Origin: Pseudoalteromonas spongiae UST010723-006
GTDB lineage: Bacteria > Pseudomonadota > Gammaproteobacteria > Enterobacterales > Alteromonadaceae
Assembly: GCF_000238255.3 (NCBI RefSeq)
Contig: NZ_CP011039.1
Coordinates: 1,289,001-1,353,000, forward strand
Direction: 5' to 3'
DNA length: 64,000 nt
The notes beneath the pieces are model-generated. The model searched no databases and was not told the origin of the DNA. It saw only the letters and a program-made list of their open reading frames with translations. This document shows, one piece after another, positions 1,117 through 17,538 of this stretch. Both the position numbers and the translations under genes were made by a program. Positions within the stretch are counted from its first letter, which is position 1; each line of letters starts with the position of its first letter.

Positions 1117-3516
1117 TTGTGGATGGATGCGCTGTTGTTTCGTTTTAGTGATTATGAATTTGAACCAGAAACAGGTTACCTAACGCGGTTGAACGATGCC
1201 CAAACTCAGCAGCCGGTGTTACTGCGAAATAAGGTTGCTAATTTACTGACCTATTTTTTGCAGCACCCAAATGAACTCATTGCTAAAGAAACCTTGCTTA
1301 CACATTTATGGCAGCATGGTGACTATCGCGAATCAGCATTAACGCAAAGTATTCGTGAGTTACGTTTGGCCCTAAACGATGATGCTAAATCGCCGTGTTA
1401 CATTAAAACAATTCCACAACGTGGTTATCAGTGGATTTGCCCAATAACACGTGACGTAAATCAGGCAGAATCAAAGCATTCTGAACAACCAACAGCAAAA
1501 AAAATACAGACAGAAAACACGTTAAATAAATCCCTAGGTTTATGGATTGTTGTGGGCGTTTTAATGTTAGCCGGGTTAATATTGGCTATTGGAATTTGGC
1601 AACTTAATAGCGGTAATGTTGCTAACCATAGCGAACAACAAAACCAAGTTACATCGCGTTTGCGAGTAATGGTGCTGCCGTTTATTAACGATACACAACA
1701 GCCAAGCATGGCATGGCTAGAACATGGCCTGTCAGATATGTTGGCGGTCGATTTAAAGCGCTCTCAACGGGTTGATGTGATTTCGCCCTCTGAGGCACAT
1801 TTATCGTTGTTGAAAAATGAGTTGCCGTGGCCCGCAATGCCAGTACAAATACGTAACTTACTCGATAAACTTGGGGCAAATGTCGCTATTTTCGCAAGTG
1901 TGCGCATGCATCAGCAAAAACAAGTTATCGACTTTCAGGCAATCTATTCTGATGGACGCATCAAACAGGGTAGTTTGAGCTATGACGAGTTAGCGTCGCA
2001 TATTGAAGTTATCTCGCAGCAGATCCTAGCAATGATAAACGTTCATAAACACAATAATAAAAAAGCGCTTCCTGATATTTCCGCAATGGCGATCGCTCAA
2101 GGCATGCAAGCATTGCAAACCACGGGTGCTGCAGAGGCGATTAAATATTTTCAAGCAGCAAACACCATATCGCAAACAAATTGGGCAAGCGCTTATTTGG
2201 CAAGAAGTTATATTGCTGTGGGAAAATGGTCAGAGGCTCGCATCGAATTTAGTAAAATTGGGCAAAACGACCTAAAATACGACCCACTACTTAATGCCTT
2301 TATCGCGTATTGGCAGGCAATTATCGCGACACGTCAAGGCAGTAGCGACCAACACGCTTTGATTGAGAAAAGCATTCACGCCAGTATCAACAGCCAAGAC
2401 CCACAATTAATCGCAGAAAGTTATCGTTTACAAGCGTCATTGGCTTGGCAAGCAATGAAATGGCAGCAACATGATGAATTACTAAAAAAAGCAGCGAAGT
2501 TAACTGATAATTATACTGAGTTAGCCGCAACGGCAGATTCACTATTCTATTTGGGCCAACCAAATAATGTGGGGCTAGAAAAAAGCCCGTATAACGATTT
2601 AGCCAAAAATAAAGAGCGACTCACTAAGGCGCTGAGTTTTTACCAAACCCTCGGCAATCTAGAAAAAATCGCGGCAACACAACTGGCGATTGCACAAAAC
2701 TATTATTTTGACCAAGAAAAACGTGAAATCGCTTTGCAAGATGCATTAGCGCGCTTTGCCGAGCTTAACTTACCGTATGAGTTAGCAATGGCAGAACTTT
2801 ATGCGGGTTTTTATCATATGCAATTGCACCAAGGACAACTTGCTGAGCAGTATTTTAAGCAAGCAAAGCATGGGTTTGAAAAGCTGGGTGCCAAATCGGC
2901 GTTGCCGTGGGCTGATTTTTATATAGCGTTTTCCTACCTTGATCAAGGACTAGATCAAAGTGAACTGGGCCGCCATGGACAAAACCCAGAAATGCTTAAG
3001 CGAGCGATTAATGCGTTTCAGACACTATTACCGAATACGCAATCGGATGTCATAAAAGCAAGCAGTTATGTATTTGTTGCATGGGCATACACCGACTTAC
3101 AACAGTTTGATAAGGCGAAGCATGCACTTAAATTAGCGTTAACCCATTCCAGCGACCCTGCGTTAACCTTAACAAATGAATATGCGCGTTATTCGTTAAT
3201 GTATATTTACCTACTGCAAGACCAAGCGCAAAAAGTGCTGGAAATAGAAAAACGCCCTTGGCGTACAAGACTACAAGCGGTTTATGTCGCCAAAGCGTAT
3301 GCTGCATTAGCGCAATATAATAAGGCGGCCAACACGCTTAATGATTTAAAAGAAGTAATGCCGGGGTATTTCACAATACAAGATAACGACCTGCTTGAAG
3401 CCTATCGCAGACAAAATAGGGCAGGCAGTATCATGCTCGAGCAAACTCTGCCTAAAGCGCATTCCGTTTATTGTGAAACAGATTGGTCGATTGATATCAG
3501 TAAACATGCTAACTAA
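1117..3516 (+). CDS. CadC/ToxR-like membrane-anchored transcriptional regulator with TPR domain
   Basis: This 799-residue protein begins with an OmpR/PhoB-type winged helix (about 10-105, ending in the typical IPQRGYQW segment). A single membrane helix follows at about 140-162 (GLWIVVGVLMLAG). A periplasmic part comes next, with a TolB-like segment (RVMVLPFINDT) and helical TPR-like repeats from about 300 to the end. The architecture is that of CadC/ToxR one-component regulators that sense a periplasmic signal and bind DNA directly. Start choice: a TTG at 1117 lies about 12 bases after an AGG and an ATG is at 1123. Neither has a good Shine-Dalgarno sequence. It diverges from the CcdA-thioredoxin pair, so that pair may be a target, which is only inference. 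Confidence 0.85.
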   Translation: MWMDALLFRFSDYEFEPETGYLTRLNDAQTQQPVLLRNKVANLLTYFLQHPNELIAKETLLTHLWQHGDYRESALTQSIRELRLALNDDAKSPCYIKTIPQRGYQWICPITRDVNQAESKHSEQPTAKKIQTENTLNKSLGLWIVVGVLMLAGLILAIGIWQLNSGNVANHSEQQNQVTSRLRVMVLPFINDTQQPSMAWLEHGLSDMLAVDLKRSQRVDVISPSEAHLSLLKNELPWPAMPVQIRNLLDKLGANVAIFASVRMHQQKQVIDFQAIYSDGRIKQGSLSYDELASHIEVISQQILAMINVHKHNNKKALPDISAMAIAQGMQALQTTGAAEAIKYFQAANTISQTNWASAYLARSYIAVGKWSEARIEFSKIGQNDLKYDPLLNAFIAYWQAIIATRQGSSDQHALIEKSIHASINSQDPQLIAESYRLQASLAWQAMKWQQHDELLKKAAKLTDNYTELAATADSLFYLGQPNNVGLEKSPYNDLAKNKERLTKALSFYQTLGNLEKIAATQLAIAQNYYFDQEKREIALQDALARFAELNLPYELAMAELYAGFYHMQLHQGQLAEQYFKQAKHGFEKLGAKSALPWADFYIAFSYLDQGLDQSELGRHGQNPEMLKRAINAFQTLLPNTQSDVIKASSYVFVAWAYTDLQQFDKAKHALKLALTHSSDPALTLTNEYARYSLMYIYLLQDQAQKVLEIEKRPWRTRLQAVYVAKAYAALAQYNKAANTLNDLKEVMPGYFTIQDNDLLEAYRRQNRAGSIMLEQTLPKAHSVYCETDWSIDISKHAN

Positions 3517-3649
3517 CAGTGCTTTAATCACTATCGTTTTACCAGTCATTTTGTGCCTTTATGTAAGCTGGGTGGTTATTGCTTGCTTCATGTATAAGGG
3601 TTACAAATTCGCTGAATACCAAGGCTGTTTTTCTTTACAGCCCTCATTT

Positions 3650-3835
3650 TGCGTGTCTTTATCGCGGTGCTTGATATGTTGCCTAGCGATCTAAATGAAT
3701 ACAAACCAAAGCTTGCACGCTCAGCTCACATCCCTTACCTGGATTTTGTTCACAACAATGATAAAAGTTTGCGTAAGAGAACTGTTCGCCTGCGCTTGTT
3801 GATTTTCTACTGCGTTATCGCTTATTTATGCTGAC
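3650..3835 (+). repeat. Degenerate copy of the MITE-like intergenic repeat
   Basis: The stretch aligns along most of its length with the complement of about 12430-12626. Shared blocks include TTTATCGCGG, a CTAGC/CTAGCG block, CAAAGCTT, a CTCAC...CCCTTACCT block, AGAAC.GTTCG and GTGTTATCG-like ends. Its spurious translation resembles that of the other copy, which shows common descent. The terminal inverted repeats are not recognisable, so this is a decayed or truncated copy. Confidence 0.65.
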
Positions 3836-4143
3836 TAACCCCATTGCGTTCTCGGCATTGTTTAAATATCGTGAAAATAAGCATGAAAGCTTAATAGGCT
3901 TTCATGTAAAAAACAGCTAACCCGCATCGCTGCCTTACATATCAATCACCGCCTTATCGGATTATGGAGCAGAATTCACTTTATCTGTGTAAACAACAAT
4001 TCGATATGCGTGGCGTGGTTATTTTTTGACGATACGACAGGCTCGCTTAAGGTGACTTAAACGCTTACTTTGTAACCTAATGTGTTTTTAAAAACATAAT
4101 CATGGCTAATTTTACGAAAAGATCGAAATATGACTAGACAAAT

Positions 4144-4155
4144 GACACCGGTGTC
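4144..4155. promoter_or_regulatory. Perfect 12-bp palindrome, possible LacI-family operator
   Basis: GACACCGGTGTC is a perfect palindrome with a central CG pair, preceded by AAT as in the second site 20 bases downstream. It matches that second site at TGACA.CGG/CGTGTC positions only partly, so it may be a weaker site for the same regulator. Confidence 0.4.
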
Positions 4156-4174
4156 TTTATTATCCTCATTAACA

Positions 4175-4192
4175 AATGACAGCGCTGTCATT
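4175..4192. promoter_or_regulatory. Perfect 18-bp palindrome, probable LacI-family operator
   Basis: AATGACAGCGCTGTCATT is a perfect palindrome with a central CG, the form usual for LacI-family sugar regulators. An almost identical site lies at 4605-4624, just before the TonB receptor gene. No LacI-type gene is present in this window, so the regulator would be encoded elsewhere. Confidence 0.6.
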
Positions 4193-4317
4193 ATTTTCCC
4201 TTGTAAGTAATGTGAATTAAGATTTGAGGGCTCCACTTCTATCATTCTGCCCAGTGATAGGGGCCCTCAATTAGCTAACACAGAGTTAACCAACGTAACG
4301 TTAAGCAAAGCGCTTTA

Positions 4318-4348
4318 TCAGGCAATGTAATAATTGCCTGACATTTTT
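4318..4348 (+). terminator. Hairpin with short T run, possible terminator
   Basis: TCAGGCAAT and ATTGCCTGA form a 9-bp stem around a six-base loop, followed by CATTTTTC. No gene ends close upstream on the plus strand, so its purpose is unclear. It could insulate the TonB receptor promoter. Confidence 0.4.
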
Positions 4349-4604
4349 CTAAAATCGCTCCAAGCACCTGATCCGACCTCCACCTGATTAAACTTTTCTT
4401 ACAGATTAAGCTTTACAGATAATATTCGCCGTATGTTATAGTAAAAAGGTCGCTAGCCCCCGTATTTAGCGGGTGTTATGAAAATTTATTATTGCAAATG
4501 TAAATAAACTGTTCTTATTTGTTATATATAAATGAACGCGATTGTTTAAAAAATGCAAAAATAATTGTAGCGATATTGTAATTTTACGTGTAAGGTTTGT
4601 TATC

Positions 4605-4624
4605 AGATGACAACGCTGTCATCT
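4605..4624. promoter_or_regulatory. Near-perfect 20-bp palindrome upstream of TonB receptor gene
   Basis: AGATGACAACGCTGTCATCT has one mismatched pair flanking the central CG and shares the core ATGACA.CGCTGTCAT with the site at 4175-4192. It ends 53 bases before the receptor start codon, a position suited to repression of that promoter by a LacI-family protein. Site and spacing are seen; the regulator is inferred. Confidence 0.65.
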
Positions 4625-4677
4625 TCACTGGGCAGAAAGTGAATTAAACCAAAACAAAATGATTCAAGGGGAATCCT

Positions 4678-7335
4678 GTGTTAGCTAAAAATTTCAAAAA
4701 AAGCTTATTAGCAGTTAACATCGGTTTAGCAATGGGCGCTGGTTTTTCAGGCGTGGCTGTTGCAGCTGATTCAGAAGTACAAGCAAAAGAAGATGTGGAA
4801 GTAATTGAGGTACGTGGTATTCGTCGCTCTCTTGCAGCATCGGTAAATACTAAACGTTTCGAAAACTCAGTTGTAGATGCGCTTACAGCTGAAGATATCG
4901 GTAAACTTCCAGATTCTGACGTAGGTCAGTCTTTAGCACGTATTCCGGGTATTTCTGTAAATAGAACATTCGGTCAAGGTAGTTCAGTTTCTATCCGTGG
5001 TACAGACCCACGTATGACACTAACAACGCTTAACGGCCAAAACGTAGCGTCAACTGGTTGGTATGACCAAATGAACATTGACCGTTCATTCAACTATTCA
5101 ATGCTTCCACCTGAGCTTATCGGTGGCATGGAAGTTTATAAAACTTCTCAAGCGAATATTGTTGAAGGCGGTATTGGTGGTACGGTTATCGTTAAAACTC
5201 GTAAACCGCTTGACCTAGATGCAAACACTATTTTCGGCTCAGTTAAAGGCGAATATGGTTCAATCAATGAAAATGTAGCACCAGATGTATCAGCGTTATA
5301 CAGCTGGAAAAATGATGCTGAAACTTTTGGTGTTTTAGTATCAGGCGCTTACGTTGACCGTGAATATCTTCGTCGTGGTACAGAAGCAGATTTAGATTGG
5401 GGTGGACGTTCGTCTATTCAGCCTTCAAGCTTCCTACAAGAGCAAGAGCGTACGGCATTAAACGTAGCACTACAGTATCGTCCAACTGATAACCTTGAGT
5501 TCGGCGCATCAGTTATGATGCTAGAACTAGGTGCAGACAGCATCGGTGCAAACATGTACATCGAAACTGATACAGATTGGGGTGACGGTGAGTCAGTTTG
5601 TCAATCTAAAAACTCAGCTGGCGTTTGTACATACAGTGATACTCCTGAAAATGCAGCTTCTCGCGTATTCTTCCAAAACTGGGCTCGTCAAGGTGAAATG
5701 ACATCTGACACAATCGAGTTAAATGCTAAATACGAAGGCGATAACTACACAGTAAAAGCAGTGGCTGGTAGCACGAAAGCTGACGGTGGTACTCAAATGA
5801 GTGCAAACTTTGGCTACGGTTGGTGGGGCGATCGTTTTGGCGAAGTTAAATGGGCTGGTGTAGTAGACGCGACAGGCAAAAAAGTTGACATCGATGGCCG
5901 TGACATGGGCTTCACTGTAGATCAACTTGATACGACAGTTGGTACATCTCAGTGGACTGGTATTAAAGGTCCTAACTCAGATGAAGAAGTTTATGCGCAG
6001 GTTGATTTAGACCTTGACGTAGATCTAGGTGCAATTAACAAGTTCAAAACGGGTATTCGTTACACGCAACACGAATTCGAGCGCTTCCAATACAGTGCAG
6101 TATATGGCGACGGTGCAAATGTATTTAATACGAGCGATTTATACAGTGGCACAATGGAGCTAGGTTCAGAAGGTTGGACTATTCCAAAAGCAAACCTAGA
6201 CGCGATGATCAATTCAACTGTATCACTAGTGGATGAGTTTGTATACTCACGCCCAGGTTACGGTAAAATTGAAGAAGATAACCTTTCTGCATACGCAATG
6301 TTTGAGTTCCAAAGTGACGGCTTACGCGGTAACTTCGGTGTTCGTTACATTTCAACAGACGTAACGTCTAAAGGTCATTATATTGATAACTCACCGGCAG
6401 ACAAATTAGGTACTAACGCAGGTTGGAGTACGGGTCTTACTTCGGCTGAAGGTGATTACAGTGACTTCTTACCGAGCATCAATATTGCGTATGACCTATC
6501 AGAAGATATGATTTTACGTTTTGCTGCGTCACAAGCGATTACACGTCCTAACTATGACGCGCTATTCTTAGCAAGCCTTGACGGATACCCAGATGACCGT
6601 CGCGGCAACGAAAACATCACATACGGTAACCCTGCACTTGAGCCAATGAAAGCATCTCAAGCTGATATCAGCTTAGAATACTACTATGGTGACAGTAACT
6701 TATTTGCAGTGACTTTCTTTATGAAAGACATCAGCAACTTTATCGTAGGTACAACTGAAGACAATGTTGCTATCGGTGTAATTAACAACGATTTAGAAAC
6801 GCCAGCTGATAGCTGGATCGTTAATAACTTCGTTAACGCGGGTGGCGGTACAATTGACGGTATCGAATTCCAACTTAACCATGCATTTGGCAATGGTTTT
6901 GGTGTGAACGCTAACTACACGTACTCAGATGCTGAAGCGCCTAAAGAAGTATACACAGATCAGCTAAGCGTTTTCTCTGAGTCGTCTAAGCACACGGGTA
7001 ACTTAGTTGGTTACTGGGAAAATGAGACGTTCTCTGCGCGTGCGGCATACAACTACCGTTCAGAATATATGATCCGTGAATACGGCGCATATTATGGTAA
7101 CCGTATGCACGATGATTACGGTTCGCTAGACCTATCATTCGGTTGGAATGCAACGGATAACATCGCAGTACGTTTAGAAATTGTAAACTTAACTGCTGAA
7201 GATGATATCCAATACGGTGCAGCATCAGGTACAGATTCTAATGTACAAGTTAAACCTTCACTTAAAGATGGCTTCCCAGTATGGTCATTCGAAGGTGAAA
7301 CAACTTATAAACTTGGTGTGAACTTCACGTTCTAA
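4678..7335 (+). CDS. TonB-dependent outer-membrane receptor (carbohydrate type)
   Basis: This 885-residue receptor starts at a GTG that is well placed after AAGGGG. The signal peptide spans residues 1 to about 29 and ends in AVAVAAD. It is followed by a TonB-box-like VEVIEVRGI segment, a plug domain (about 55-180, with SVSIRGTDPRMT and GGIGGTVIVKT), and a long beta-barrel ending in the aromatic terminus KLGVNFTF. Family knowledge: receptors of this subtype (TonB-dependent receptor, RRSLAASVNTKRF...EDIGKLPDSDVGQ) import oligosaccharides or other nutrients across the outer membrane. The palindromic operator upstream and the halogenase/SapC genes downstream match a recurrent Alteromonadales uptake cluster. 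The substrate is not visible. Confidence 0.93.
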   Translation: MLAKNFKKSLLAVNIGLAMGAGFSGVAVAADSEVQAKEDVEVIEVRGIRRSLAASVNTKRFENSVVDALTAEDIGKLPDSDVGQSLARIPGISVNRTFGQGSSVSIRGTDPRMTLTTLNGQNVASTGWYDQMNIDRSFNYSMLPPELIGGMEVYKTSQANIVEGGIGGTVIVKTRKPLDLDANTIFGSVKGEYGSINENVAPDVSALYSWKNDAETFGVLVSGAYVDREYLRRGTEADLDWGGRSSIQPSSFLQEQERTALNVALQYRPTDNLEFGASVMMLELGADSIGANMYIETDTDWGDGESVCQSKNSAGVCTYSDTPENAASRVFFQNWARQGEMTSDTIELNAKYEGDNYTVKAVAGSTKADGGTQMSANFGYGWWGDRFGEVKWAGVVDATGKKVDIDGRDMGFTVDQLDTTVGTSQWTGIKGPNSDEEVYAQVDLDLDVDLGAINKFKTGIRYTQHEFERFQYSAVYGDGANVFNTSDLYSGTMELGSEGWTIPKANLDAMINSTVSLVDEFVYSRPGYGKIEEDNLSAYAMFEFQSDGLRGNFGVRYISTDVTSKGHYIDNSPADKLGTNAGWSTGLTSAEGDYSDFLPSINIAYDLSEDMILRFAASQAITRPNYDALFLASLDGYPDDRRGNENITYGNPALEPMKASQADISLEYYYGDSNLFAVTFFMKDISNFIVGTTEDNVAIGVINNDLETPADSWIVNNFVNAGGGTIDGIEFQLNHAFGNGFGVNANYTYSDAEAPKEVYTDQLSVFSESSKHTGNLVGYWENETFSARAAYNYRSEYMIREYGAYYGNRMHDDYGSLDLSFGWNATDNIAVRLEIVNLTAEDDIQYGAASGTDSNVQVKPSLKDGFPVWSFEGETTYKLGVNFTF

Positions 7336-7349
7336 TTCATGTTTTAATA

Positions 7350-7378
7350 AAAACCCAGTATTGTTACTGGGTTTTTTT
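7350..7378 (+). terminator. Rho-independent terminator after TonB receptor gene
   Basis: AAAACCCAGTA and TACTGGGTTTT form an 11-bp stem with loop TTGT, continuing into a run of T. It lies 14 bases after the receptor stop and 18 bases before the next start, so it probably attenuates rather than fully separates the downstream genes. Confidence 0.85.
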
Positions 7379-7395
7379 CGTTTTGGAGCACAAAA

Positions 7396-8907
7396 ATGAT
7401 AAAAAAAGTCGCTATTCTAGGTGGGGGCACTGCCGGCTGGTTAGCTGCAAATCATTTAGGGCATGCGCTTTCAGCAACTGATATCGAAGTTACACTTATC
7501 GAGTCAGAAGACGTACCGTCAATAGGTGTTGGCGAGGGCACCGTTCCATTTATTAAAGATACACTGCAAAAGTTTGGCATCTGTGAAGTTGATTTACTAC
7601 TCGGTTGTGACGCAACGTTTAAGCAAGGTATAAAATTCACCAACTGGATGGATAAGACCCGTCACGGTGAATGTAACCATTATTACCATCCGTTCGAATC
7701 CCCATACCCAAATGAGTTTGATGTCACTAACTATATGCTAGGCGAGGGGAGTGAATTACGCTTTGATGATGTAACGATACAATCAGCTGTTTGTGAGTTA
7801 GGATTAGCGCCGAAACTTGTTTCTTCAGCTCCTTACCAGGGCGTTCTAAACTATGCATATCATTTTGACGCCGCGAAGTTTGCATTATTATTAGCACGTA
7901 ACGCCAAAGAAAGGTTTAACGTTAAACATTTAAAAGCAACGGTTGAGAACGTACAACTTGATGATACCGGTAATGTAAAAGCAGTAACGAGTGTCAATGG
8001 TGATACACTTGCTTTCGACTTTTTTGTTGATTGTACAGGTTTTGCATCGCTGCTTATTGATAAAGCACTTAATGTACCCTTTGTTAGTAAGGCGGACGAA
8101 TTACTAACGGATAAGGCGCTTGTTAAACAAGTGCCCCTTAACCCTAAACAAGGGATTTTTCCATATACCAAAGCAACGGCACATCAGGCAGGTTGGATAT
8201 GGGATATTCCGTTAACCACCCGACGTGGCACTGGTTTTGTCTATGCCAGTGAGTTTATGAGTGAAGATGACGCACACCGTAAATACGCACGCTACTTGAA
8301 TTTAGATGCAGACAAACTTGATGTAAGAAAAATCAACATGGAAGTAGGCTACAGAGAAGTGTCGTGGTATAAAAATTGTGTGTGTTTAGGCCTTGCACAA
8401 GGATTTTTAGAGCCGCTTGAAGCGACTTCAATCTTATTAACCGATTTTACAGCAGATCTGCTTGCTAAAAACTTTCCAAAAAATCAATCTGATGCAGATG
8501 TGATGCGCGATGATTTCAATAAAGCTGTGACATATGCATGGGATAGAACGACGGATTTTATCAAGCTACATTATTGTATTTCTGATCGTCAAGATTCTGA
8601 TTTTTGGTTAAAAAACCAATCATTGGCGCACAGCTCTGAAGAACTTAAAACACGCTTAGCCAAATTTAAGATCAGACCACCGCACCGTCAGGATTTTTTT
8701 AGTCGCTTTGATCTTTTTGATGAAAAAAATTACCTCTATGTACTGTACGGTATGCGCTACCCAACGTCTAAACCGCACTGTTCTGAGCAAGAGGTCAAGC
8801 TAAGTCGTGAACTATTGGCACGTAACAAAGAAATGCTGTCAATGGCGCAAGAAAAACTACTGTTAACGAGTGAGTGGTTAACTAAGTTGAAGCAAGCAGT
8901 ACGTTAA
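7396..8907 (+). CDS. Flavin-dependent tryptophan-halogenase-like protein
   Basis: This 503-residue protein has the FAD-binding GGGTAGW motif near residue 10, GVGEGT at about 46, and the halogenase hallmark WIWDIP at 267-272. A lysine (K76, in TFKQGIKF) sits where PrnA has its catalytic lysine. EPLEA at 339-343 matches the segment carrying the catalytic glutamate of PrnA. Family knowledge: such enzymes turn FADH2, oxygen and halide into HOX and halogenate electron-rich aromatics. The context (TonB receptor before, 2OG-oxygenase-like protein and SapC after) is that of orphan marine family members, not a tryptophan-derived antibiotic cluster. The key residues are intact, but the true substrate, and even whether it halogenates, is unknown. 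A flavin reductase partner is not encoded nearby. Confidence 0.88.
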   Translation: MIKKVAILGGGTAGWLAANHLGHALSATDIEVTLIESEDVPSIGVGEGTVPFIKDTLQKFGICEVDLLLGCDATFKQGIKFTNWMDKTRHGECNHYYHPFESPYPNEFDVTNYMLGEGSELRFDDVTIQSAVCELGLAPKLVSSAPYQGVLNYAYHFDAAKFALLLARNAKERFNVKHLKATVENVQLDDTGNVKAVTSVNGDTLAFDFFVDCTGFASLLIDKALNVPFVSKADELLTDKALVKQVPLNPKQGIFPYTKATAHQAGWIWDIPLTTRRGTGFVYASEFMSEDDAHRKYARYLNLDADKLDVRKINMEVGYREVSWYKNCVCLGLAQGFLEPLEATSILLTDFTADLLAKNFPKNQSDADVMRDDFNKAVTYAWDRTTDFIKLHYCISDRQDSDFWLKNQSLAHSSEELKTRLAKFKIRPPHRQDFFSRFDLFDEKNYLYVLYGMRYPTSKPHCSEQEVKLSRELLARNKEMLSMAQEKLLLTSEWLTKLKQAVR

Positions 8908-8925
8908 TTTTACTTTAGAGGTTTT

Positions 8926-9573
8926 GTGGAAATTATAAATCCAGATAAAAAAATAGCGGTTTTTGATTATGATGAGTCATCACGCACCGAAGAACTCGCG
9001 TTTTTAACACAAGGGTTAGATCATTTATTTGTTCTGCCTGAAGTTCTAAATGTAGAAAATGTGCCCGATGCATCAGGTGCGAGAGCACTTTCAACGGTAC
9101 ACTTAAGTGACCGTTTAAATCTTGTCAATTTTCTACAATTAAAGACAATGCCAATGGGACATTGGCTTTTTAATAGTATCAGTCAAGCTGCGTCCCAATT
9201 TGGGTTAGGGAAAACGCGAAACATTCGCCAGTTTAAGTTTCATCGCACTTGGGCAAATAGAATAGAACAAGGTTGCAATACCATCGCACATCGACATGCC
9301 CAAAAAGATTGGGCTGCACCTCATGTGGTTGCAATTTTATACGTTGAATGTGCCCCAGGAAGTGCCGATTTAGTGTTTGTTGATGACGACTCAAATGTAA
9401 TGCGAGCAGAGCATATCAGTCACTACAATGCAAAGCTGTGCACCACAATTGATAGTAAAGCAGCAAGATTAGTGGTCCACGATGCGACGTATTTGCACGG
9501 CACGACAGAACATGCGCTTGATCAAACTAGATCTTGCATTATTTTTGAAGTAGGATTTCCACCATTAACATAA
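8926..9573 (+). CDS. Putative 2OG-Fe(II) oxygenase-like/cupin-fold protein
   Basis: This 215-residue protein starts at a GTG after TAGAGG, 18 bases behind the halogenase-like gene, so it is probably cotranscribed. The C-terminal half has the pattern of a double-stranded beta-helix metal site: HRHAQKDW near 125, a later histidine pair in LHGTTEH near 191-195, and an RSCIIFEVGF segment whose arginine could bind 2-oxoglutarate. Family-level assignment only: similar proteins recur beside halogenase-like and SapC genes in marine bacteria. The metal ligands are not proven and the substrate is unknown. It could act on the same molecule as the halogenase-like protein. Confidence 0.55.
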   Translation: MEIINPDKKIAVFDYDESSRTEELAFLTQGLDHLFVLPEVLNVENVPDASGARALSTVHLSDRLNLVNFLQLKTMPMGHWLFNSISQAASQFGLGKTRNIRQFKFHRTWANRIEQGCNTIAHRHAQKDWAAPHVVAILYVECAPGSADLVFVDDDSNVMRAEHISHYNAKLCTTIDSKAARLVVHDATYLHGTTEHALDQTRSCIIFEVGFPPLT

Positions 9574-9687
9574 CATTCATATTTTTTGGGCTTGTTTTTT
9601 ACTAATGCAACCCATATAACGGTATAAACGCTGATTAATTGTTAGCAAAACTATTTATAATTATTAGAATTCCACTGGAGCAGTAAG

Positions 9688-10398
9688 ATGACGGACGTAA
9701 TAAAGCCACTTCATAATGTTGAACATAAAGATGTTAAAATTAAAAACGGTTTCAACACAGACCTAGTTAAAGATCAACACTTAGTACCAGTTGTGGCGCA
9801 CGAATTTGCACGTGTAGCTAACGAATACCCAATTGTATTTGTAAAAAATAACGAAACTGAAGAATTCCAGCCAGTTGCAATGTTAGGTCTTGAGCCTGGT
9901 GAGAACCTATTTGTTAAAGATGGCAAATGGCAGGGTGCTTATCTTCCACACGCACTTACGCGTTACCCGTTAGTACTGAGCAAGAACCCTGAAAATGAAG
10001 AGCAACTATTTGTTGGTATCAACGAATCTAGCGACCTTGTAAACAAAGAAGAAGGTAATGCACTTTTCGATGAAAAGGGCGAAGAAACAGATTACCTTAA
10101 GCGTCGTAAAGAAGGCTTAATTGCGTTTGTTGAATTCTCACAAGTTACTGCTGCGTTCACTAAGTTCCTAGCTGATAAAGAACTACTTATCCCGCAAACA
10201 CTAACGCTTGAAATTAAAGGCGAGAAGCGTGATATCAATGGTATCTACCTAATCGACGAGAAAAAACTAAACGAGATGGCTGATGACGAGTTCTTAGAGC
10301 TTCGTAAGCGTGGTTACTTACCACCAATCTACTCGTTCTTAACATCAATGCCTCAAGTAAATCGTCTTGCACGTTTAAAAGCAGAGCACGGTGCTTAA
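9688..10398 (+). CDS. SapC family protein
   Basis: This 236-residue protein starts at an ATG after CTGGAGCAG. Segments such as HEFARVANEYPIVFVKN, AMLGLEPGENLFV and GKWQGAYLPHALTRYPL are characteristic of the SapC family. That family is named after a Campylobacter S-layer-associated protein, but in marine and Caulobacter-type bacteria it is found beside TonB receptors. No signal peptide or membrane segment is visible, so it is probably cytoplasmic. A 114-base gap separates it from the oxygenase-like gene, so it could have its own promoter. Its terminator at 10420-10447 closes the locus. Molecular function unknown. Confidence 0.85.
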   Translation: MTDVIKPLHNVEHKDVKIKNGFNTDLVKDQHLVPVVAHEFARVANEYPIVFVKNNETEEFQPVAMLGLEPGENLFVKDGKWQGAYLPHALTRYPLVLSKNPENEEQLFVGINESSDLVNKEEGNALFDEKGEETDYLKRRKEGLIAFVEFSQVTAAFTKFLADKELLIPQTLTLEIKGEKRDINGIYLIDEKKLNEMADDEFLELRKRGYLPPIYSFLTSMPQVNRLARLKAEHGA

Positions 10399-10419
10399 TT
10401 TAACGGCTAAACGTTAAGT

Positions 10420-10447
10420 AAAAAAAGCGCCAGTTGGCGCTTTTTTT
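10420..10447. terminator. Bidirectional terminator between sapC-like gene and ydcH-like gene
   Basis: AAAAAAAGCGCC and GGCGCTTTTTTT pair around the loop AGTT. The stem is flanked by A on the left and T on the right and so can serve both converging transcripts. Confidence 0.9.
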
Positions 10448-10461
10448 GTGTTTGTTGTTTG

Positions 10462-10710
10462 TTAATTTTCTTTATGTGTTTTCAGCATCGCGTACAGCTC
10501 GTCTTTTAGGTGTAAACGACGCATTTTTTGTTTTTCTAGGTATGCGTCAGAAGTATTTTCAACGCCTTCTTCAATGCGGATCACTTCGTGATCAAGATCG
10601 TGGTATTCCTTAAATAATTTAGAAAAGTGCGCATTAGTCATTTTTAATTCGCGAATTTCTTCATTAAACTCTGGAAACTCATGATGCATGTCGTGTTTTT
10701 CAATAAACAT
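10462..10710 (-). CDS. DUF465 (YdcH-like) small protein
   Basis: This 82-residue, highly charged, helical protein contains the segments HHEFPEFNEEIRELK, FSKLFKEYHDLDHEV and RRLHLKDELYAML, the hallmark of the DUF465/YdcH family. It has no signal peptide and is probably a short coiled-coil cytoplasmic protein. It lies 12 bases behind the DksA/TraR-like gene on the same strand and is likely cotranscribed. Function unknown in the family. Confidence 0.85.
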   Translation of the reverse strand: MFIEKHDMHHEFPEFNEEIRELKMTNAHFSKLFKEYHDLDHEVIRIEEGVENTSDAYLEKQKMRRLHLKDELYAMLKTHKEN

Positions 10711-10722
10711 GGGTGTTATTCC

Positions 10723-11037
10723 TTATTGTGCACAGTTGATACAAGTTTGAACATAGGGTAATGCATGTAAACGCTCGCGTGATATTTCGCTCTCGCACTG
10801 GCTACAAATGCCATAATTATTGTTTTCTAAGCGCGAAATAGCGGCATTTACTTGTTGTAATTCCAATTTTGCCTCATGGCGAATGCCGTCGAGCACTTGG
10901 TCGTTTTCACTCTCTGTCGCTTGCTCTGCAAAGTCTTGCGAGCGACCTTTTTTAAAATCTGAACCAATCGCATTGATGCGTTTATTGAGTTCGATTTGTT
11001 TTTCTTTAAGCTCGATTAAAATTGCGTTTTTGTTCAT
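10723..11037 (-). CDS. DksA/TraR family C4 zinc-finger protein
   Basis: This 104-residue protein has an N-terminal coiled coil (about 5-70) with the acidic tip DFAEQATESENDQVLD. A C-terminal zinc finger follows, with cysteines at 78, 81, 99 and 102 (CSQC...CINC). Family knowledge: DksA-like proteins insert the coiled coil into the RNA polymerase secondary channel and alter promoter response, often with ppGpp. It is shorter than DksA (about 150 residues) and resembles the DksA-like proteins with the DFAEQATE signature. A stand-alone accessory regulator is the best reading. GGAGGC lies just before the ATG. Confidence 0.85.
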   Translation of the reverse strand: MNKNAILIELKEKQIELNKRINAIGSDFKKGRSQDFAEQATESENDQVLDGIRHEAKLELQQVNAAISRLENNNYGICSQCESEISRERLHALPYVQTCINCAQ

Positions 11038-11217
11038 AACGCCTCCTATTCTTTAATTATTAATCTACGCCGCTTTGATGGGATTGCGTTGATCTAGCGC
11101 AAAAAAATAACGCCTTTGTGCTGTTCATCGAAAATGCTTGAAATTGACGCGTTTGCCTTGCAAATTGAATAGAGTGTTTTGTTCTTTGTTGTTGCTTCTT
11201 GACTTAGACCACTAGGA

Positions 11218-11292
11218 CTACAAAGCCACGCCGCGATCAAAAAAGCTTTGGATTTGAACAGAATTTAGACCACAAAGATCAATACGCTCTAA
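11218..11292. repeat. Possible highly decayed end of the MITE-like repeat
   Basis: Blocks GCCGCGATCAAAAAAGC and AAAGATCAATA recall one end of the element at 12590-12654 (GCCGCGATAAAAGC and GAAGATCAACAGAC), in the same order. The match is weak and could be chance. It sits directly upstream of the isoaspartyl peptidase gene. Confidence 0.25.
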
Positions 11293-11311
11293 AAACAAAA
11301 GGAAAACAATA

Positions 11312-12328
11312 ATGAACAAACGACTCGCAACTGCGTTTTTAACAGCGTTTTTATCTACTAGCGTGTTTGCATCCAGTGAACAGCCTTTCTCAATCGCCAT
11401 TCACGGTGGAGCAGGCACGATAGACAAAAGTAAATTTACCCCTGAAAAGGAAGCGGCGTATCGCGCTAAACTGCAAGAAGCAGTAGAAGCAGGTTATAAA
11501 GTGCTTGAAAACGGTGGTGAGAGCTTAACGGCGGTCACTACAGCCATTAATATTTTAGAAAATTCGCCGTTTTTTAACGCCGGCATTGGTGCCGTTTACA
11601 CTTATGATGGACACCATGAACTTGACGCATCAATTATGGATGGGCGCGACCGTCAAGCGGGTGCCGTTGCGGGTGTAAAGCACATTAAAAACCCAATCGA
11701 TTTAGCACGGTTAGTAATGGAAGAGTCTGTACACGTGATGCTAAGCGGCAATGGCGCAGAACAATTTGCTAAGAAAAACGGCATGAGTTTAGTTAATAAC
11801 AGTGTGTTCGACACCGAGCACCGATATAAAGCGCTAGAACGCGCTAAAAAGAAACTCAATAAAACAGAGAACTACCAAGCAAATCATCGTGCACTGCCTG
11901 AGCAATATAAAATGGGCACGGTCGGCGCTGTGGCGTTAGATAAACACGGTAACTTGGCAGCTGGTACGTCAACGGGTGGTATGACGGCAAAACGCTTTGG
12001 TCGTATTGGTGATTCGCCTGTGATTGGTGCGGGTACCTTTGCCGATAACCGTTCATGTGCGGTGTCTGCTACAGGCCATGGTGAATATTTCATCCGTTAC
12101 AGTGTGGCGTCTGATATTTGTGCTCGTGTGCAGTATCAAGGCAAAACCATTCAGCAAGCCGGTGATGAAGTAATTCATGATGTACTTAAACCAATAGGGG
12201 GCACAGGTGGTGTAATTATTGTTGATAGTAAAGGTAATATTAGTCTGCCATTTAATACCAAAGGCATGTATCGCGCGTCAAAACTGGCAAATCAGCCTAC
12301 CTATGTGGCAATTTTTAAAGACGAATAA
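11312..12328 (+). CDS. iaaA: Secreted isoaspartyl peptidase / plant-type L-asparaginase
   Basis: This is a 338-residue Ntn-hydrolase. Residues 1-21 are a signal peptide (MNKRLATAFLTAF...FASS), so the enzyme is periplasmic or secreted. FSIAIHGGAGTI opens the mature domain, GGESLTAVTTAI and FFNAGIGAVY are typical family blocks, and the autocleavage site is the Gly-Thr bond in MGTVGAV. Thr203 would become the N-terminal nucleophile, followed by GTSTGGMT substrate-binding residues. Family knowledge: it hydrolyses beta-aspartyl peptides and asparagine. E. coli IaaA lacks a classical signal peptide of this kind, so export suggests nutrient scavenging. AAAAGGAAAAC precedes the ATG. Confidence 0.9.
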   Translation: MNKRLATAFLTAFLSTSVFASSEQPFSIAIHGGAGTIDKSKFTPEKEAAYRAKLQEAVEAGYKVLENGGESLTAVTTAINILENSPFFNAGIGAVYTYDGHHELDASIMDGRDRQAGAVAGVKHIKNPIDLARLVMEESVHVMLSGNGAEQFAKKNGMSLVNNSVFDTEHRYKALERAKKKLNKTENYQANHRALPEQYKMGTVGAVALDKHGNLAAGTSTGGMTAKRFGRIGDSPVIGAGTFADNRSCAVSATGHGEYFIRYSVASDICARVQYQGKTIQQAGDEVIHDVLKPIGGTGGVIIVDSKGNISLPFNTKGMYRASKLANQPTYVAIFKDE

Positions 12329-12338
12329 CGGCGATTTT

Positions 12339-12654
12339 TTAGGGTCTGTTGACCTTTCAAGTTTGTTTTTGCAGCAGTTTGATTGGGTTTTATACAAGGC
12401 AGAGGCTGCGTGGCATAGTTATTCTATGTGAGTCAGCCGATAACACAGTTGAAAACCCAATCAAGCGCTGCCGAACGGTTCTTTTGAGCGCACTTTTTTC
12501 ATTGTTTCCTATATGGATGTAGGTAAGGGGCGTGAGCAGGACGCGGAAGCTTTGCTCGATATTCGCTTAGATTGCTAGCCCACACACCGAGCGCCGCGAT
12601 AAAAGCACGCTCACACATAACGAAAATAGAACAGCGAAGATCAACAGACACTAG
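12339..12654 (-). repeat. MITE-like element with terminal inverted repeats
   Basis: This 316-bp non-coding element is bounded by TTAGGGTCTGTTGACC and, on the complement, CTAGTGTCTGTTGATC (13 of 16 positions equal). Inside, GATTGGGTTTT (12381-12391) and AAAACCCAATC (12452-12462) form an internal inverted repeat. A decayed copy lies at 3650-3835 and an isolated terminus at 17085-17113. A 61-codon open frame on the complement is merely a translation of the repeat. No transposase is encoded; mobilisation in trans is inference. Confidence 0.75.
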
Positions 12655-12666
12655 TTGAATAAAATT

Positions 12667-12703
12667 AAAATAAGGGAAGCGCAATGCTTCCCTTATTTTA
12701 TGA
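12667..12703. terminator. Strong bidirectional hairpin before hrpA
   Basis: AAAATAAGGGAAGC and GCTTCCCTTATTTT form a perfect 14-bp stem with loop GCAAT, flanked by A/T runs. It sits between the repeat element and hrpA and would stop read-through from either side. hrpA must then be transcribed from within the 50 bases before its start or by read-through. Confidence 0.75.
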
Positions 12704-12752
12704 CAATCAATTTGTTATTATTGGCCTTTTGAAATTCCGCTTTATTCTATCT

Positions 12753-15700
12753 ATGGCTAATCCACAACAGCAGCTCTATTCACTCTTAAAAAATTGTCTT
12801 AAGAAAGATCAGTTTTTCTTCAAACGTCGCCTCGATGGTGTGAAAAAAATAAATGATGAAGCAAAACAGGTGAAGGTGCTTACCACAATTACAAAAGACA
12901 TTGAAAAAAGCATCGAGCTGAGGGAGTTACGTTTAAAGCAACTGCCAAAGGTGAGTTATCCAGTAAACCTACCAGTTAGTCAGAAAAAAGACGATATTAA
13001 AAAAGCCATTAGCGAAAATCAGGTGGTGATTGTCGCGGGTGAAACCGGTTCAGGTAAAACCACTCAGTTACCTAAAATTTGTTTAGAGCTTGGCCGAGGT
13101 GTTGCAGGTTTAATTGGCCACACCCAACCACGCCGATTAGCTGCGCGCAGTGTTGCCGCCCGTGTTGCTGAGGAAATTGGCACTACCATAGGTGATAAAG
13201 TGGGTTTTAAAATTCGCTTTAGTGATCAAGTTTCTAACTCAAGCTATTTGAAGCTGATGACTGATGGTGTGTTGCTTGCGGAAATTCAACAAGATAGATT
13301 TTTAAACCAGTACGACACCATCATTATCGATGAAGCGCACGAACGCAGTTTAAATATCGACTTTATTTTAGGTTATTTGAAAAACCTGTTACCCAAACGC
13401 CCCGATTTAAAACTGATTATCACCTCGGCAACCATCGATCCCGAGCGATTTTCAAAGCATTTTAACAATGCGCCGATTATTGAAGTATCGGGCCGCACTT
13501 ACCCTGTTGAGGTACGTTACCGTCCGTTAACGGAAATCGACAAAACAGAGATGGAAGCAGAGGGCGATCAACTGCAAGGTATTTTTGATGCGGTTGATGA
13601 GCTATTGCAAGCTGGGCCGGGCGATATTCTTATTTTTATGAATGGAGAGCGTGAAATTCGCGATACTGCCGATGCGCTCGCAAAACGCGGCCTTGCAAAT
13701 ACCGAAGTGCTGCCACTTTATGCGCGCCTTTCAAATGCTGAGCAAAATCGTATTTTTGCCTCGCACTCTGGCCGTCGTATTGTATTGTCTACTAACGTTG
13801 CAGAAACGTCACTTACGGTTCCGGGCATTCGTTATGTTATCGATCCTGGTACGGCACGCATTAGCCGATACAGCTACCGTACTAAGGTTCAACGTTTACC
13901 AATTGAAGCAATTTCGCAGGCCAGTGCCAATCAGCGTAAAGGGCGATGTGGTCGTGTGGCGGAAGGTATTTGTATTCGTCTTTATTCAGAAGAAGACTTT
14001 TTGGGCCGCCCTGAATTTACCGACCCTGAAATTCTACGCACAAATTTAGCGTCAGTTATTTTGCAAATGTTGGCACTTGGCTTAGGCGATATTGCGAAAT
14101 TCCCATTTGTGCAAGCACCAGATAACCGTAATATTACCGATGGTCTTCGCTTACTCGAAGAAATTCAGGCAATTACACCGGTTACACGAAAGAAAGATTA
14201 TAAGCTGACTAAAGCAGGGCGCGAATTAAGCCGCTTACCAGTTGACCCGCGGCTAGCTAAAATTGTGCACGCAGCGAAAGATTTCGACACCATGTTCGAA
14301 GCGATTGTGATTGTGGCGGCGTTATCGATTCAAGATCCACGAGAATTCCCGCAAGACAAAAAAGCCAAAGCACAAGAAAGCCATAGCCGCTTTGCGGACA
14401 AAAATTCTGATTTTATCGGCTTTTTAAATTTATGGCGTTATTTAGAAGAGCAACAACAAGCGTTGTCGCGCAGCCAATTTAGAAAGCTTTGCCAAAACGA
14501 ATTCTTTGCTTATATGCGTGTGCGTGAATGGCAAGATATTGTTTATCAACTGGTATCAACATGCGAAGAAATGGGTTTTAAAATTAACCAAAACCCGAGC
14601 GATTACGAAGCAATTCATAAGTCAATTTTGGCAGGTATGCTCAGCCACATTGGTATGAAAGATGAAAATCAGCAATACACAGGGGCGCGTCAAAGTAAGT
14701 TCTTTGTATTCCCAGGCTCAGGTCTTTTCAAAAAGTCACCGAAATGGTTAGTGGCCGCAGAGCTCGTTGAAACCAGTAAACTCTTTGCCCGTATTAATGC
14801 CAAGATAGATCTTGCATGGGTTGCGCCACTTGCACAGCATTTGGTGAATCGCAGTTACAGTGAACCGCACTGGCAAAAGAAAGCGGGCGCGGTAATGGCG
14901 TTTGAACAGCAAACCCTATATGGCTTAACCATTGTGTCACGTAAAAGTGTGCAATTTAATAAAATAGACGCCAAGTTAAGCCGTGAAATTTTTATACGCA
15001 GTGCGTTGGTTGAACAACAGCTTGGTCAAAGTGAAAGCTTTTTAAACTTTAATCAAAAGCTGATTGATGAAGTACAAGATCTTGAGCACAAAGCGCGCCG
15101 TCGCGATATTTTAGTCGATGAAGAAACCTTGATGGACTTTTACCATCAACGATTGCCAGATAACATCACCAGTCGCGTTGAGTTTAATACTTGGTGGAAG
15201 AGTAAAAAGAAAACTGAGCCAAAATACCTGCATATGGATAAAGCGGCGTTAATGCAACATGATGCGGCTCATATTAGTAAAGACAATTACCCTGACGTTT
15301 GGCAGCAAGGCAATTTGTTCTTCCCGTTAGAATATCATTTTGAACCGGGGCAAGCATTGGATGGTGTAGTGGTGCAGGTGCCTTTAGCGCTGTTAAACCA
15401 AGTGGAAGATACAGGTTTTGATTGGCATATTCCGGCGTTTCGTCATGAGTTAATAACTGCGTTAATCAAATCGTTACCGAAAACAACGCGCCGTAATTTT
15501 GTGCCAGCGCCTAATTACGCTGATGCCGTAATGGCGTCGCTTGAGCCAATGCAGGGCAGTTTTATTGAAGCAATCAGTAAGCAGTTATTGCGTATGTCAG
15601 GTATTACAATTAAAGCACAAGAATGGGATTATTCTGCGTTGCCAAGTCATTTGAAACTTCAGTTTGCCATTAGAGATGATAAAAATAAATTGCTTGCAAG

Positions 15701-16646: not shown

Positions 16647-16738
16647 ATATCACAAGCAAATGTAAATTTTTTGTTATTGGAAATCGGCATTTGCTGTGGT
16701 AATAATAAACCTGCGACAGGAAGTTTAGGGGAAATCTA

Positions 16739-17035
16739 ATGTTGTATGAAGACAAGCGTAATTTTTTTCGCATGTTAGTAAATGCCGAAGCACAGCTAGT
16801 AATTTTAGACTCAGAAGCTGGCCGTAAAATTGATGGTGTATGCCGAGATTTAAGTGCTACGGGAATGGCAATTGAAATTGATGAACCATTAGAGGTAAGC
16901 ACACAAGTAAAAGTGCGCATCGATGCCACCAATAACAGTGTGCCGGCACTTGATGCACTAGCAACTGTGGTGCGCTGCAGCGAAATAGAAGATCAAGAAT
17001 ATTTGCTGGGTTTAGAAGTACTGGAAATAAATTAA
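16739..17035 (+). CDS. PilZ domain protein (cyclic di-GMP binding)
   Basis: This 98-residue single-domain protein has RNFFR at about 7-11 and DLSATGM at about 38-44, the two PilZ motifs (RxxxR and D/NxSxxG) that bind cyclic di-GMP. Residues for both are intact. The start is an ATG after AGGGGAAATCTA. It is followed by its own terminator, so it is a monocistronic unit after hrpA. As a stand-alone PilZ protein it would act as a c-di-GMP adaptor; the partner is unknown. Confidence 0.88.
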   Translation: MLYEDKRNFFRMLVNAEAQLVILDSEAGRKIDGVCRDLSATGMAIEIDEPLEVSTQVKVRIDATNNSVPALDALATVVRCSEIEDQEYLLGLEVLEIN

Positions 17036-17060
17036 AAGAGGAGCATGATGCTCCTTTTTT
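17034..17060 (+). terminator. Rho-independent terminator after PilZ gene
   Basis: AGGAGC and GCTCCT pair around ATGAT and run into TTTTTT. It begins at the PilZ stop codon. Confidence 0.8.
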
Positions 17061-17084
17061 AATGGCAAAATCTACCTGAAATAA

Positions 17085-17113
17085 AACGAACTTGAAAGGT
17101 CAATAGACCCTAG
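17085..17113 (+). repeat. Isolated terminus of the MITE-like repeat
   Basis: AACTTGAAAGGTCAATAGAC followed by CCTAG is the terminal part of the element at 12339-12654 (AACTTGAAAGGTCAACAGAC on its complement) with one difference. The rest of the element is absent, so this is a solo end or deletion remnant. Confidence 0.65.
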
Positions 17114-17210
17114 ACCTTAGCGTTACTTTATTGAATATAAAGAATTTAGTGTTGACATAATGCGCTAAGGGCGGCAACGTAGTTTTGATTTTAGCAAAAA
17201 GGATATGTGT

Positions 17211-17480
17211 ATGTGGTCATGGATAATGATAGTACTAGGCCTAGTCGCATCTGGGTATTTTACCGATGTGTATTCTGAATCAAACTTGCAAGCGATAGTG
17301 TGCCCGATTATTTTTGTGATACTGATTATTACCACTTTAATTAAAGCATCACTTCTTTCATCTGGTCTTAGTAACTCTAGAAGCGGAACCCATGGAACTA
17401 GCTTTAGTGGCGGTGGATTTCTCAGTGGTGATAGTGGTTCAAACGGTGGCGATTGTTCTGGCGGGGGCGGTGACTGTTAA
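17211..17480 (+). CDS. Small membrane protein with Gly/Ser/Cys-rich tail, unknown function
   Basis: The ATG at 17211 has AAAAGGA at a proper distance; an in-frame ATG at 17205 is too close to it. The 89-residue product has two hydrophobic segments (about 2-17 and 28-45, rich in I and V) and then a low-complexity tail of Ser, Gly and Asp ending GGDCSGGGGDC. Such Gly-rich Cys-containing tails recur in small bacterial membrane proteins (TIGR04222-like tails). I do not recognise a family with certainty. It sits alone between the PilZ gene and convergent rlmI. Confidence 0.6.
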   Translation: MWSWIMIVLGLVASGYFTDVYSESNLQAIVCPIIFVILIITTLIKASLLSSGLSNSRSGTHGTSFSGGGFLSGDSGSNGGDCSGGGGDC

Positions 17481-17497
17481 ATTTGAAACTTAAAAAG

Positions 17498-17532
17498 AAC
17501 TGTCAGATGCAATAACCTGAATCTGACAGTTT
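17498..17532. terminator. Hairpin between convergent genes
   Basis: AACTGTCAGA and TCTGACAGTT form a 10-bp stem around a 14-base loop, placed between the small membrane protein gene and rlmI, which converge. A T-rich stretch follows on the plus strand only loosely. Confidence 0.6.
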
Positions 17533-17538
17533 AAGTCT

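Follow-up and report, generated by a model that had tools for sequence, protein, structure and literature searches.

A predicted operator-controlled RNA and an exchangeable receptor-enzyme cassette at a TonB receptor locus of Pseudoalteromonas spongiae

The receptor locus and its LacI-type operators

We analyzed a stretch of 64,000 nucleotides from Pseudoalteromonas spongiae UST010723-006 (hereafter the window; C1:1289001-1353000 of a 4.75-Mb genome in two contigs), in which a TonB-dependent receptor gene is preceded by LacI-type operators and a predicted small RNA, and is followed by genes for a flavin halogenase-like protein, a putative 2-oxoglutarate-iron(II) (2OG-Fe(II)) oxygenase, and a SapC protein. 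Two parts of the locus are of interest: the RNA predicted upstream, and the swapping of receptor and enzymes as a cassette. The arrangement of four same-strand genes (TonB receptor, PF04820, PF13759, and SapC), which had been proposed from the letters of the window (the sequence-only reading), was confirmed by the open reading frames (ORFs) together with Pfam and NCBIfam matches (Table 1). The receptor was assigned to TIGR01782 by NCBIfam (617 bits against a cut-off of 310). The oxygenase-like protein exceeded the PF13759 cut-off only narrowly, and its translation contains His and Asp residues, as read by eye without structural alignment to the iron triad. SapC was found once in the genome and PF04820 gave five full-length matches there, while a search of PDB sequences with SapC returned no match at E ≤ 1. 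The SapC family has a role in surface-layer formation. No carbohydrate-active enzyme was found among the four genes by Pfam; such genes sit at other operator sites. No signal sequence was evident, when the translations were read by eye, at the start of the halogenase-like, oxygenase-like, or SapC proteins, suggesting that these proteins could reach the receptor only while it is still unexported, or a ligand once it has been fully imported. A gene for a CadC-like regulator with tetratricopeptide repeats lies upstream of the locus (window 1117-3516).

A LacI-type operator was indeed present before the receptor gene, where the sequence-only reading had placed it, as an exact pattern match. Two operators beyond those listed in that reading were found 431 and 465 bp upstream of the receptor operator. 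The pattern ATGACANCGNTGTCAT, with at most one mismatch, occurred at 21 sites in the genome, compared with none for a reversed-pattern control; by reading, 15 of the 21 sites were intergenic and 6 were inside ORFs, so that some of them may have arisen by chance. Operators with an RCGY center were exact at nagB/nagX and at nagK-nagA, and one with a single mismatch lay between nagP and a gene for a GH20-like enzyme; NagB, NagX, NagA, NagK, and NagP were all named by NCBIfam equivalogs above the curated cut-offs. Another one-mismatch operator adjoins pgi (named by reading) and a LacI-type gene (L026). Operators with a CCGG center were found at glk, at edd-eda-gap, and at a pyruvate-kinase-like gene (edd named by NCBIfam, the others by reading), and a pckA-like gene, also named by reading, carries two operators, one CCGG and one TCGC. 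The operator type that the locus has in common with the nag genes suggested that it belongs, by prediction, to an amino-sugar (NagR-type) regulon. The sugar-responsive control proposed earlier is thus likely, and the operator copies at nagB/nagX, nagK-nagA, and nagP make it specific. The genome has four LacI-type matches, and the LacI-type protein beside pgi and its nag-type site was over the cut-off in no listed NCBIfam model. The LacI-family proteins at L026:5119-6207 and L027:12635-13651 appear similar in their DNA-binding parts. The RCGY and CCGG subtypes largely divide amino-sugar from central-carbon genes, and the small-RNA promoter region has one of each; the CCGG-type operator at this promoter suggests that central-carbon status may add a separate signal.

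Table 1. Features of the locus, in positions of the window
Feature	Positions	Strand	Details
Small-RNA promoter	4135-4163	+	TAGACA-17 nt-TATTAT; 10/12 consensus match
Operator ATGACACCGGTGTCTT	4142-4157	+	One mismatch; CCGG type (cf. glk, edd, and pyk-like genes); lies within small-RNA promoter, between its -35 and -10
Predicted small RNA	4170-4348	+	About 179 nt; start inferred from promoter
Operator ATGACAGCGCTGTCAT	4176-4191	+	Exact; just 3' of predicted small-RNA start
Seed 1, CCCUUG	4198-4203	+	Predicted hairpin loop; complementary to receptor Shine-Dalgarno region
Seed 2, TTCTGCCCAGTGA	4245-4257	+	Around loop 4247-4252 of second hairpin, 4224-4270
Intrinsic terminator of small RNA	4318-4348	+	9-bp stem, T-rich tail
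Receptor-gene operator ATGACAACGCTGTCAT	4607-4622	+	Exact pattern match
Leader hairpin TTCACT-GGGCAGAA-AGTGAA	4624-4643	+	Seed 2 target; predicted fold, comparison
Leader hairpin GATTC-AAGGG-GAATC	4661-4675	+	Seed 1 target; contains Shine-Dalgarno 4666-4671; predicted fold
TonB-dependent receptor	4678-7335	+	885 aa, GTG start; TonB plug and barrel (Pfam)
Exchanged block	5340-9658		No blastn match (E ≤ 1e-10) to P1-9/G205; flanks 86.5-93% and 97% identity
Flavin halogenase-like protein	7396-8907	+	503 aa; PF04820, 432 bits (cut-off 21); WIWDIP kept
Putative 2OG-Fe(II) oxygenase	8926-9573	+	215 aa, GTG start; PF13759, 33.5 bits (cut-off 27)
SapC, fixed right-hand cassette end	9688-10398	+	236 aa; PF07277, 249 bits (cut-off 28.9)

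Predicted pairing of the upstream RNA with the receptor leader

An operator-controlled RNA with a promoter of its own, the latter by consensus match only, is predicted upstream of the receptor operator. Its predicted fold had a z-score of -4.7, and none of 200 shuffled sequences was as stable. None of the 4227 Rfam models matched the predicted RNA stretch at E ≤ 5, and the single match within window 3500-4750 (E 2.8) was on the opposite strand and outside the RNA. All 13 nt of seed 2 are complementary to positions 4625-4637 in the receptor leader; shuffled sequences gave a mean of 0.03 such matches at one mismatch or fewer. The leader as a whole folded no more stably than its shuffles (z -1.0). 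Both leader targets lie in predicted hairpin loops, suggesting that the predicted contact would be a double loop-loop interaction. In the leader alone, the Shine-Dalgarno sequence (SD) was predicted to be 0.80 unpaired; with the RNA added, the duplex prediction had it 0.83 paired to that RNA, and in the window its coverage in the RNA-leader duplex reached 0.97. The predicted pairing between RNA and leader is well supported in silico.

The conservation of the predicted RNA was examined with window:4100-4720 as the query against 99 genomes of the genus. Matches were found in 82 of them (the source genome included), in 81 cases in the receptor leader, and G182 matched only near the upstream operator. 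Ten matched genomes, G182 among them, were left out of the reading, which comprised 75 loci from 72 genomes (G127, G232, and G235 were each read twice). The upstream operator was present in 63 of the 75 loci (60 genomes), about 300-505 bp 5' of the receptor operator, and 59 of these 63 loci had a promoter counterpart scoring at least 9 of 12, compared with an average of 7.3 at random positions; the loci scoring below 9 were L082-L084 and L090. The promoter script gave 7-9 for the lineage of the window because its promoter sits one operator further upstream, and the direct score was 10/12. The RNA sequence has strongly diverged, yet seed 2 was found in all 63 loci, seed 1 in 61, and both in 61. 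Among 28 representatives (clusters below 80% identity), both seeds occurred in 27, compared with a mean of 3.0 and a maximum of 7 in 200 shuffle rounds and with 0/14 for a downstream control. The RNA-leader duplex energy had a mean z-score of -2.4; reversing the sequence gave +0.4, and the downstream control (n = 19) gave 0.0.

The seed 2 hairpin showed compensatory changes in the two classes tallied, UUUGCCC and CUGCCM. In the UUUGCCC class (8 distinct sequences), pairs 4, 5, 8, and 9 change on both sides and pair 8, with three pair types, is formed in 8/8 against 3.8 expected, and in the CUGCCM class (19 distinct sequences) pair 4 is G-C or A-U in 18/19 against 14.2 expected, counts that do not represent independent events because the sequences are related. 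A strict two-element leader target occurred exactly once in 70 of the 99 genus genomes and was absent from 29, and in the named collection of genomes all 56 stretches that fit the strict leader pattern were from Pseudoalteromonas. At L100 (G064), a long ATTGA tandem repeat lies between the upstream operator and the RNA seeds, which are otherwise kept. At L119 (G212:C1:1474000-1485000), the receptor leader is partly duplicated, about 8.5 kb in, before a second TonB receptor, the second leader match lying at G212:C1:1482435-1482566.

An exchangeable cassette at a fixed slot

The nearest relative by the 4100-4720 region was P1-9 (G205, L112), with 96% identity. The DNA match between the window and P1-9 spans 2002-5339 at 86.5-93% identity, apart from a small gap at 3880-3970, and resumes at 9659 (97%), so that the matches flank the exchanged block listed in Table 1. 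At the protein level, SapC was 97% identical and the whole receptor 53%, while the first 45 aa of the receptor were identical, and other enzymes are encoded in P1-9. The locus is shown by this comparison to be a cassette slot, with fixed ends (the leader and receptor N-terminus on one side, SapC on the other) between which the receptor body and the enzymes are replaced together. The N-terminus of the receptor, with a signal peptide and, by reading, a TonB box, is part of the fixed end, and the barrel is part of what is swapped.

The slot was surveyed in 53 stretches from the named and unnamed collections, which overlap so that some genomes are counted twice; 30 of the stretches reach SapC, and receptors below 95% identity left 38 representatives. 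Stretches with less than 4.3 kb downstream and ORFs below 150 aa were left out, and several ORFs were unclassified. After the receptor, the slot contained one or two halogenase-like proteins (on either strand), DUF6445, or Cupin_8, the last mostly with a second SapC. The comparison of gene order called for in the sequence-only reading showed that the four genes are not co-conserved: the halogenase-like gene was common in the 53 stretches, and an ORF matching the PF13759 oxygenase was present in the window only. Among 295 genomes of the order, the oxygenase-like protein likewise matched only its own genome (E ≤ 1e-15). In another genus, a single genome (L077) has a trio of receptor, halogenase-like, and PF13759 genes beside SapC, with identities to the window of 48% for the oxygenase, 59% for the halogenase-like protein, and 70% over 204 aa for the receptor end.

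Among 21 loci, 31 of 210 pairs had SapC identities above 88% with receptor identities below 60%. Receptors accompanied by Cupin_8 and by no halogenase-like gene (6 representatives) were 72-94% alike and 32-41% identical to the others, suggesting that the enzyme class follows the receptor type. A Mantel test was carried out on the 12 loci in which a + strand halogenase-like gene lies directly 3' of the receptor and SapC is within the stretch. Receptor and halogenase distances were correlated (r 0.38, p 0.025), also in a partial test given SapC (r 0.40, p 0.019), and halogenase and SapC distances were not (r 0.02). Of the tie between enzymes and uptake machinery that the sequence-only reading proposed, the link of the halogenase-like gene to the receptor therefore held, and the conserved four-gene set did not. 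That earlier interpretation is thus partly supported, being right in outline (sugar control and a link to uptake) and wrong on a conserved four-gene system.

The halogenase-like protein of the window contains GGGTAG, KQGIKF, WIWDIP, and EPLEA, of which we take GGGTAG to be the flavin adenine dinucleotide (FAD) motif, and WxWxIP, the catalytic Lys, and the Glu to be halogenase motifs; all were present, as stated in the sequence-only reading. An intact WIWDIP turned out to be exceptional at this slot. We aligned 56 proteins (52 from the slot, including that of the window, and 4 paralogs from the source genome), 44 of which were representatives below 90% identity. WxWxIP was kept in 7 of the 52 slot proteins, the window included and the collections overlapping, and in the other 45 its proline was replaced (A 21, G 17, D 6, S 1). 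All four full-length paralogs outside the slot kept the motif, bringing the representatives that keep it to 10 of 44, and the Lys and EPLE columns were conserved in 56/56 aligned proteins. The frequent loss of the proline speaks against all slot proteins being canonical halogenases, and for them hydroxylation or some different oxidation appears as plausible as halogenation. The closest PDB relatives of the window protein were 9lu2, 9ltb, and 2pyx, and 6frl, which we take to be BrvH, ranked below 26 other PDB sequences.

Two paralogs lie in other surroundings. Just beyond the window end, L027 (G000:C1:1352900-1372800) is by reading a starch/maltodextrin-like locus, in which a TonB receptor-like ORF is directly followed by a halogenase-like gene with WQWQIP, together with a GH13-like enzyme, an MFS-like transporter, and a LacI-type regulator. 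At L037 (G000:C2:228000-247900), a halogenase-like gene lies at 9118-12050 between methyltransferase-like (with a signal-like start) and GNAT-like genes, as named by reading, and no receptor-sized ORF was found within the fetched stretch.

Proposed mechanism, rival explanations, and related systems

We consider it probable, with moderate confidence, that an operator-controlled RNA limits translation of the receptor and that receptor-matched tailoring enzymes sit in an exchangeable cassette between fixed ends. A LacI-family repressor would act through the operators on both the receptor promoter and the upstream promoter, and inducers of the N-acetylglucosamine (GlcNAc) type would release both. 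The upstream promoter would then give a structured RNA of about 180 nt, whose loop CUGCCC would pair with the loop of the receptor-leader hairpin, while its second element, CCCUUG, would pair with the SD, and the two contacts would block translation of the receptor. Because RNA and receptor are both under LacI-family operators, the circuit would be expected to act as an incoherent feed-forward loop that restrains the output of an abundant membrane protein. Recombination, as the comparison above shows, replaces the receptor body and the halogenase-like and oxygenase-like genes jointly, while the leader, the receptor N-terminus, and SapC stay. Since they are replaced jointly with the receptor, the oxidative enzymes, presumably cytoplasmic, would most likely modify the co-travelling receptor before its export, or else its ligand, and SapC would be a shared helper.

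Several points weigh against this reading of the RNA. The RNA is known as a prediction only, and co-induction of an RNA with its target would be unusual for a repressor RNA. The seeds, including the UUUGCC variant, were defined post hoc with the sequences already in view; the duplex energy was individually weak in 9 of the 28 representatives (equalled or bettered by more than 10 of 200 shuffles), and at L101 it was better for the reversed sequence than for the real one. In the hairpin, pair 3 of the CUGCCM class was formed in only 13/19 sequences, with C-A in 5, and 17 of the 63 loci fell in neither class and were left out of the covariation tally. Of the 75 loci, 12 had no upstream operator. 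In six of these the leader loop was missing too, as would fit a joint loss, although five of the six seem to form a single close group; the other six have no local RNA yet keep the loop, with one base changed in one of them. No convincing RNA copy was found elsewhere in these loop-keeping genomes by a weak pattern search, which also misses the RNA of the window. Terminator candidates were present in only 19 of the 63 loci and convincing in about 8 by reading, suggesting that transcription of the RNA may, in many species, continue through the receptor leader.

The few terminators and the loop-keeping loci make action in cis the main rival: a far promoter would make a long leader in which CCCUUGA folds onto its own SD, giving an untranslated mRNA, and a near promoter would make a translated one. 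It agrees with the 44 of 63 loci that have no terminator candidate and with the pairing of the SD to the upstream part of the long transcript, at a mean probability of 0.53 over the 28 representatives. We nevertheless consider it rather unlikely, because a clear terminator intervenes between RNA and receptor in the window, in its three closest relatives (L083-L085), and in L101-L103 and L150, and because the pairing in the long transcript of the window was 0.01 as against 0.97 in the duplex. It is also conceivable that TTCTGCCC and CCCCTTGA are conserved as transcription-factor sites in DNA instead of RNA seeds, since short conserved sites amid diverging surroundings are typical of DNA sites as well, and the C-A combination at pair 3 in 5/19 of the main class corresponds to a wobble pair only when read from the opposite strand. 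This explanation is very improbable, given that the seed 2 hairpins covary, that the loop-closing positions of the main class show 10 T-G (G-U on the + strand) and no A-C, and that the two seeds match separate leader elements, one of which is the ribosome-binding site.

As regards the cassette, we propose tentatively, as a possibility that we hold doubtful, that the halogenase-like, DUF6445, PF13759, and Cupin_8 enzymes are dedicated modifiers of their own TonB receptor, and that matched pairs are swapped into a fixed slot with the double-loop antisense RNA on its left and the SapC helper on its right. If true, this would be a plug-in system that changes an outer-membrane transporter while its regulation stays constant. 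Several points weigh against the enzyme side of the main reading: the targets of the enzymes are putative, the Cupin_8 link is that of one receptor clade and perhaps of one event, L117 has both Cupin_8 and halogenase-like genes, and the Mantel signal between receptor and halogenase is modest, with receptor and SapC also correlated (r 0.38, p 0.044). Alternatively, the enzymes might make or destroy a small aromatic compound and accompany the receptor only through a common nutrient island, as would fit the paralog at L037, which has no adjoining receptor-sized ORF, and the slow bromination of free indole by BrvH, a distant relative, in the main text of PMC5945002. This too is possible, although we would not expect it, as the receptor type predicts the enzyme class at one fixed slot and the loss of the WxWxIP proline in most slot proteins would be odd for a fixed small-molecule halogenation. 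TonB receptors generally serve as phage receptors, and the exchange of the barrel behind a constant N-terminus may also be an escape from receptor-using phages or toxins, the enzymes being passengers or maskers of surface residues and sugar uptake remaining unchanged. We regard this as unlikely, since PADLOC assigned the halogenase-like, oxygenase-like, and SapC proteins to no defence family and since a change of receptor brings a change of enzyme set.

To our knowledge, halogenase-like genes beside TonB receptors have no known physiological role. The joint exchange of receptor and enzymes, together with the mostly absent proline, suggests that the enzymes act on the receptor or on its ligand, which is a testable idea. 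BrvH and Xcc4156 are flavin-dependent halogenases like the family in the window; BrvH is not among the closest solved relatives of the window protein. The natural substrate of BrvH is unknown according to PMC5945002, and the word "tonb" does not occur in the main text of that paper, which thus lends no support to the association of BrvH with a TonB receptor drawn in the sequence-only reading. Among the hits listed in searches of open-licence PMC papers, we found none that describes the predicted RNA, the exchange slot, or the lack of the WxWxIP proline in its proteins.

The predicted RNA would add a layer of translational control, tied to a LacI-type regulon and with pairing predicted to the base, on a sugar receptor of a Gammaproteobacterium. 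In enterobacteria, the ChiX RNA blocks translation of the chitoporin chiP, through which chitin sugars cross the outer membrane. The gene for ChiX is not next to chiP, and a decoy mRNA relieves the repression, whereas the RNA predicted here adjoins its predicted target and has no Rfam match. There is a precedent for RNA control of TonB-dependent transporters of sugars: the FopS small RNAs of Bacteroides thetaiotaomicron repress, according to PMC11697453, translation of SusC-like (TonB-dependent) glycan transporters, much as the predicted RNA would act on the receptor here. The FopS RNAs form a paralogous family of 14 members that works with the RNA-binding protein RbpB, whereas a single RNA adjoins a single predicted target in the window, both with LacI-family operators.

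NagR regulons have been described for Shewanella and Xanthomonas in PMC2996990 and PMC5343134, and in Shewanella the LacI-family regulator controls GlcNAc genes and a TonB receptor (omp-Nag), similar to the control predicted here. The word "halogenase" occurs in the main text of neither paper, nor does "SapC" in that of PMC2996990. In Pseudoalteromonas prydzensis ACAM 620, a strain that has been genetically manipulated, TonB receptors of the ong cluster import chitin-derived sugars (PMC9537276); the cluster is controlled by the RpiR-type OngR and is specific for oxidised chitooligosaccharides, whereas the window locus has LacI-type operators, and "halogenase" does not occur in the main text of that paper. 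The genome of P. spongiae also contains an ong-like cluster (L036, G000:C2:1136000-1155900), whose receptor leader does not have the two-element target of the predicted RNA. In this cluster, the receptor at 11680-14715 is preceded by a one-mismatch nag-type operator at 11585, and two halogenase-like genes follow it immediately, at 14905-17957.

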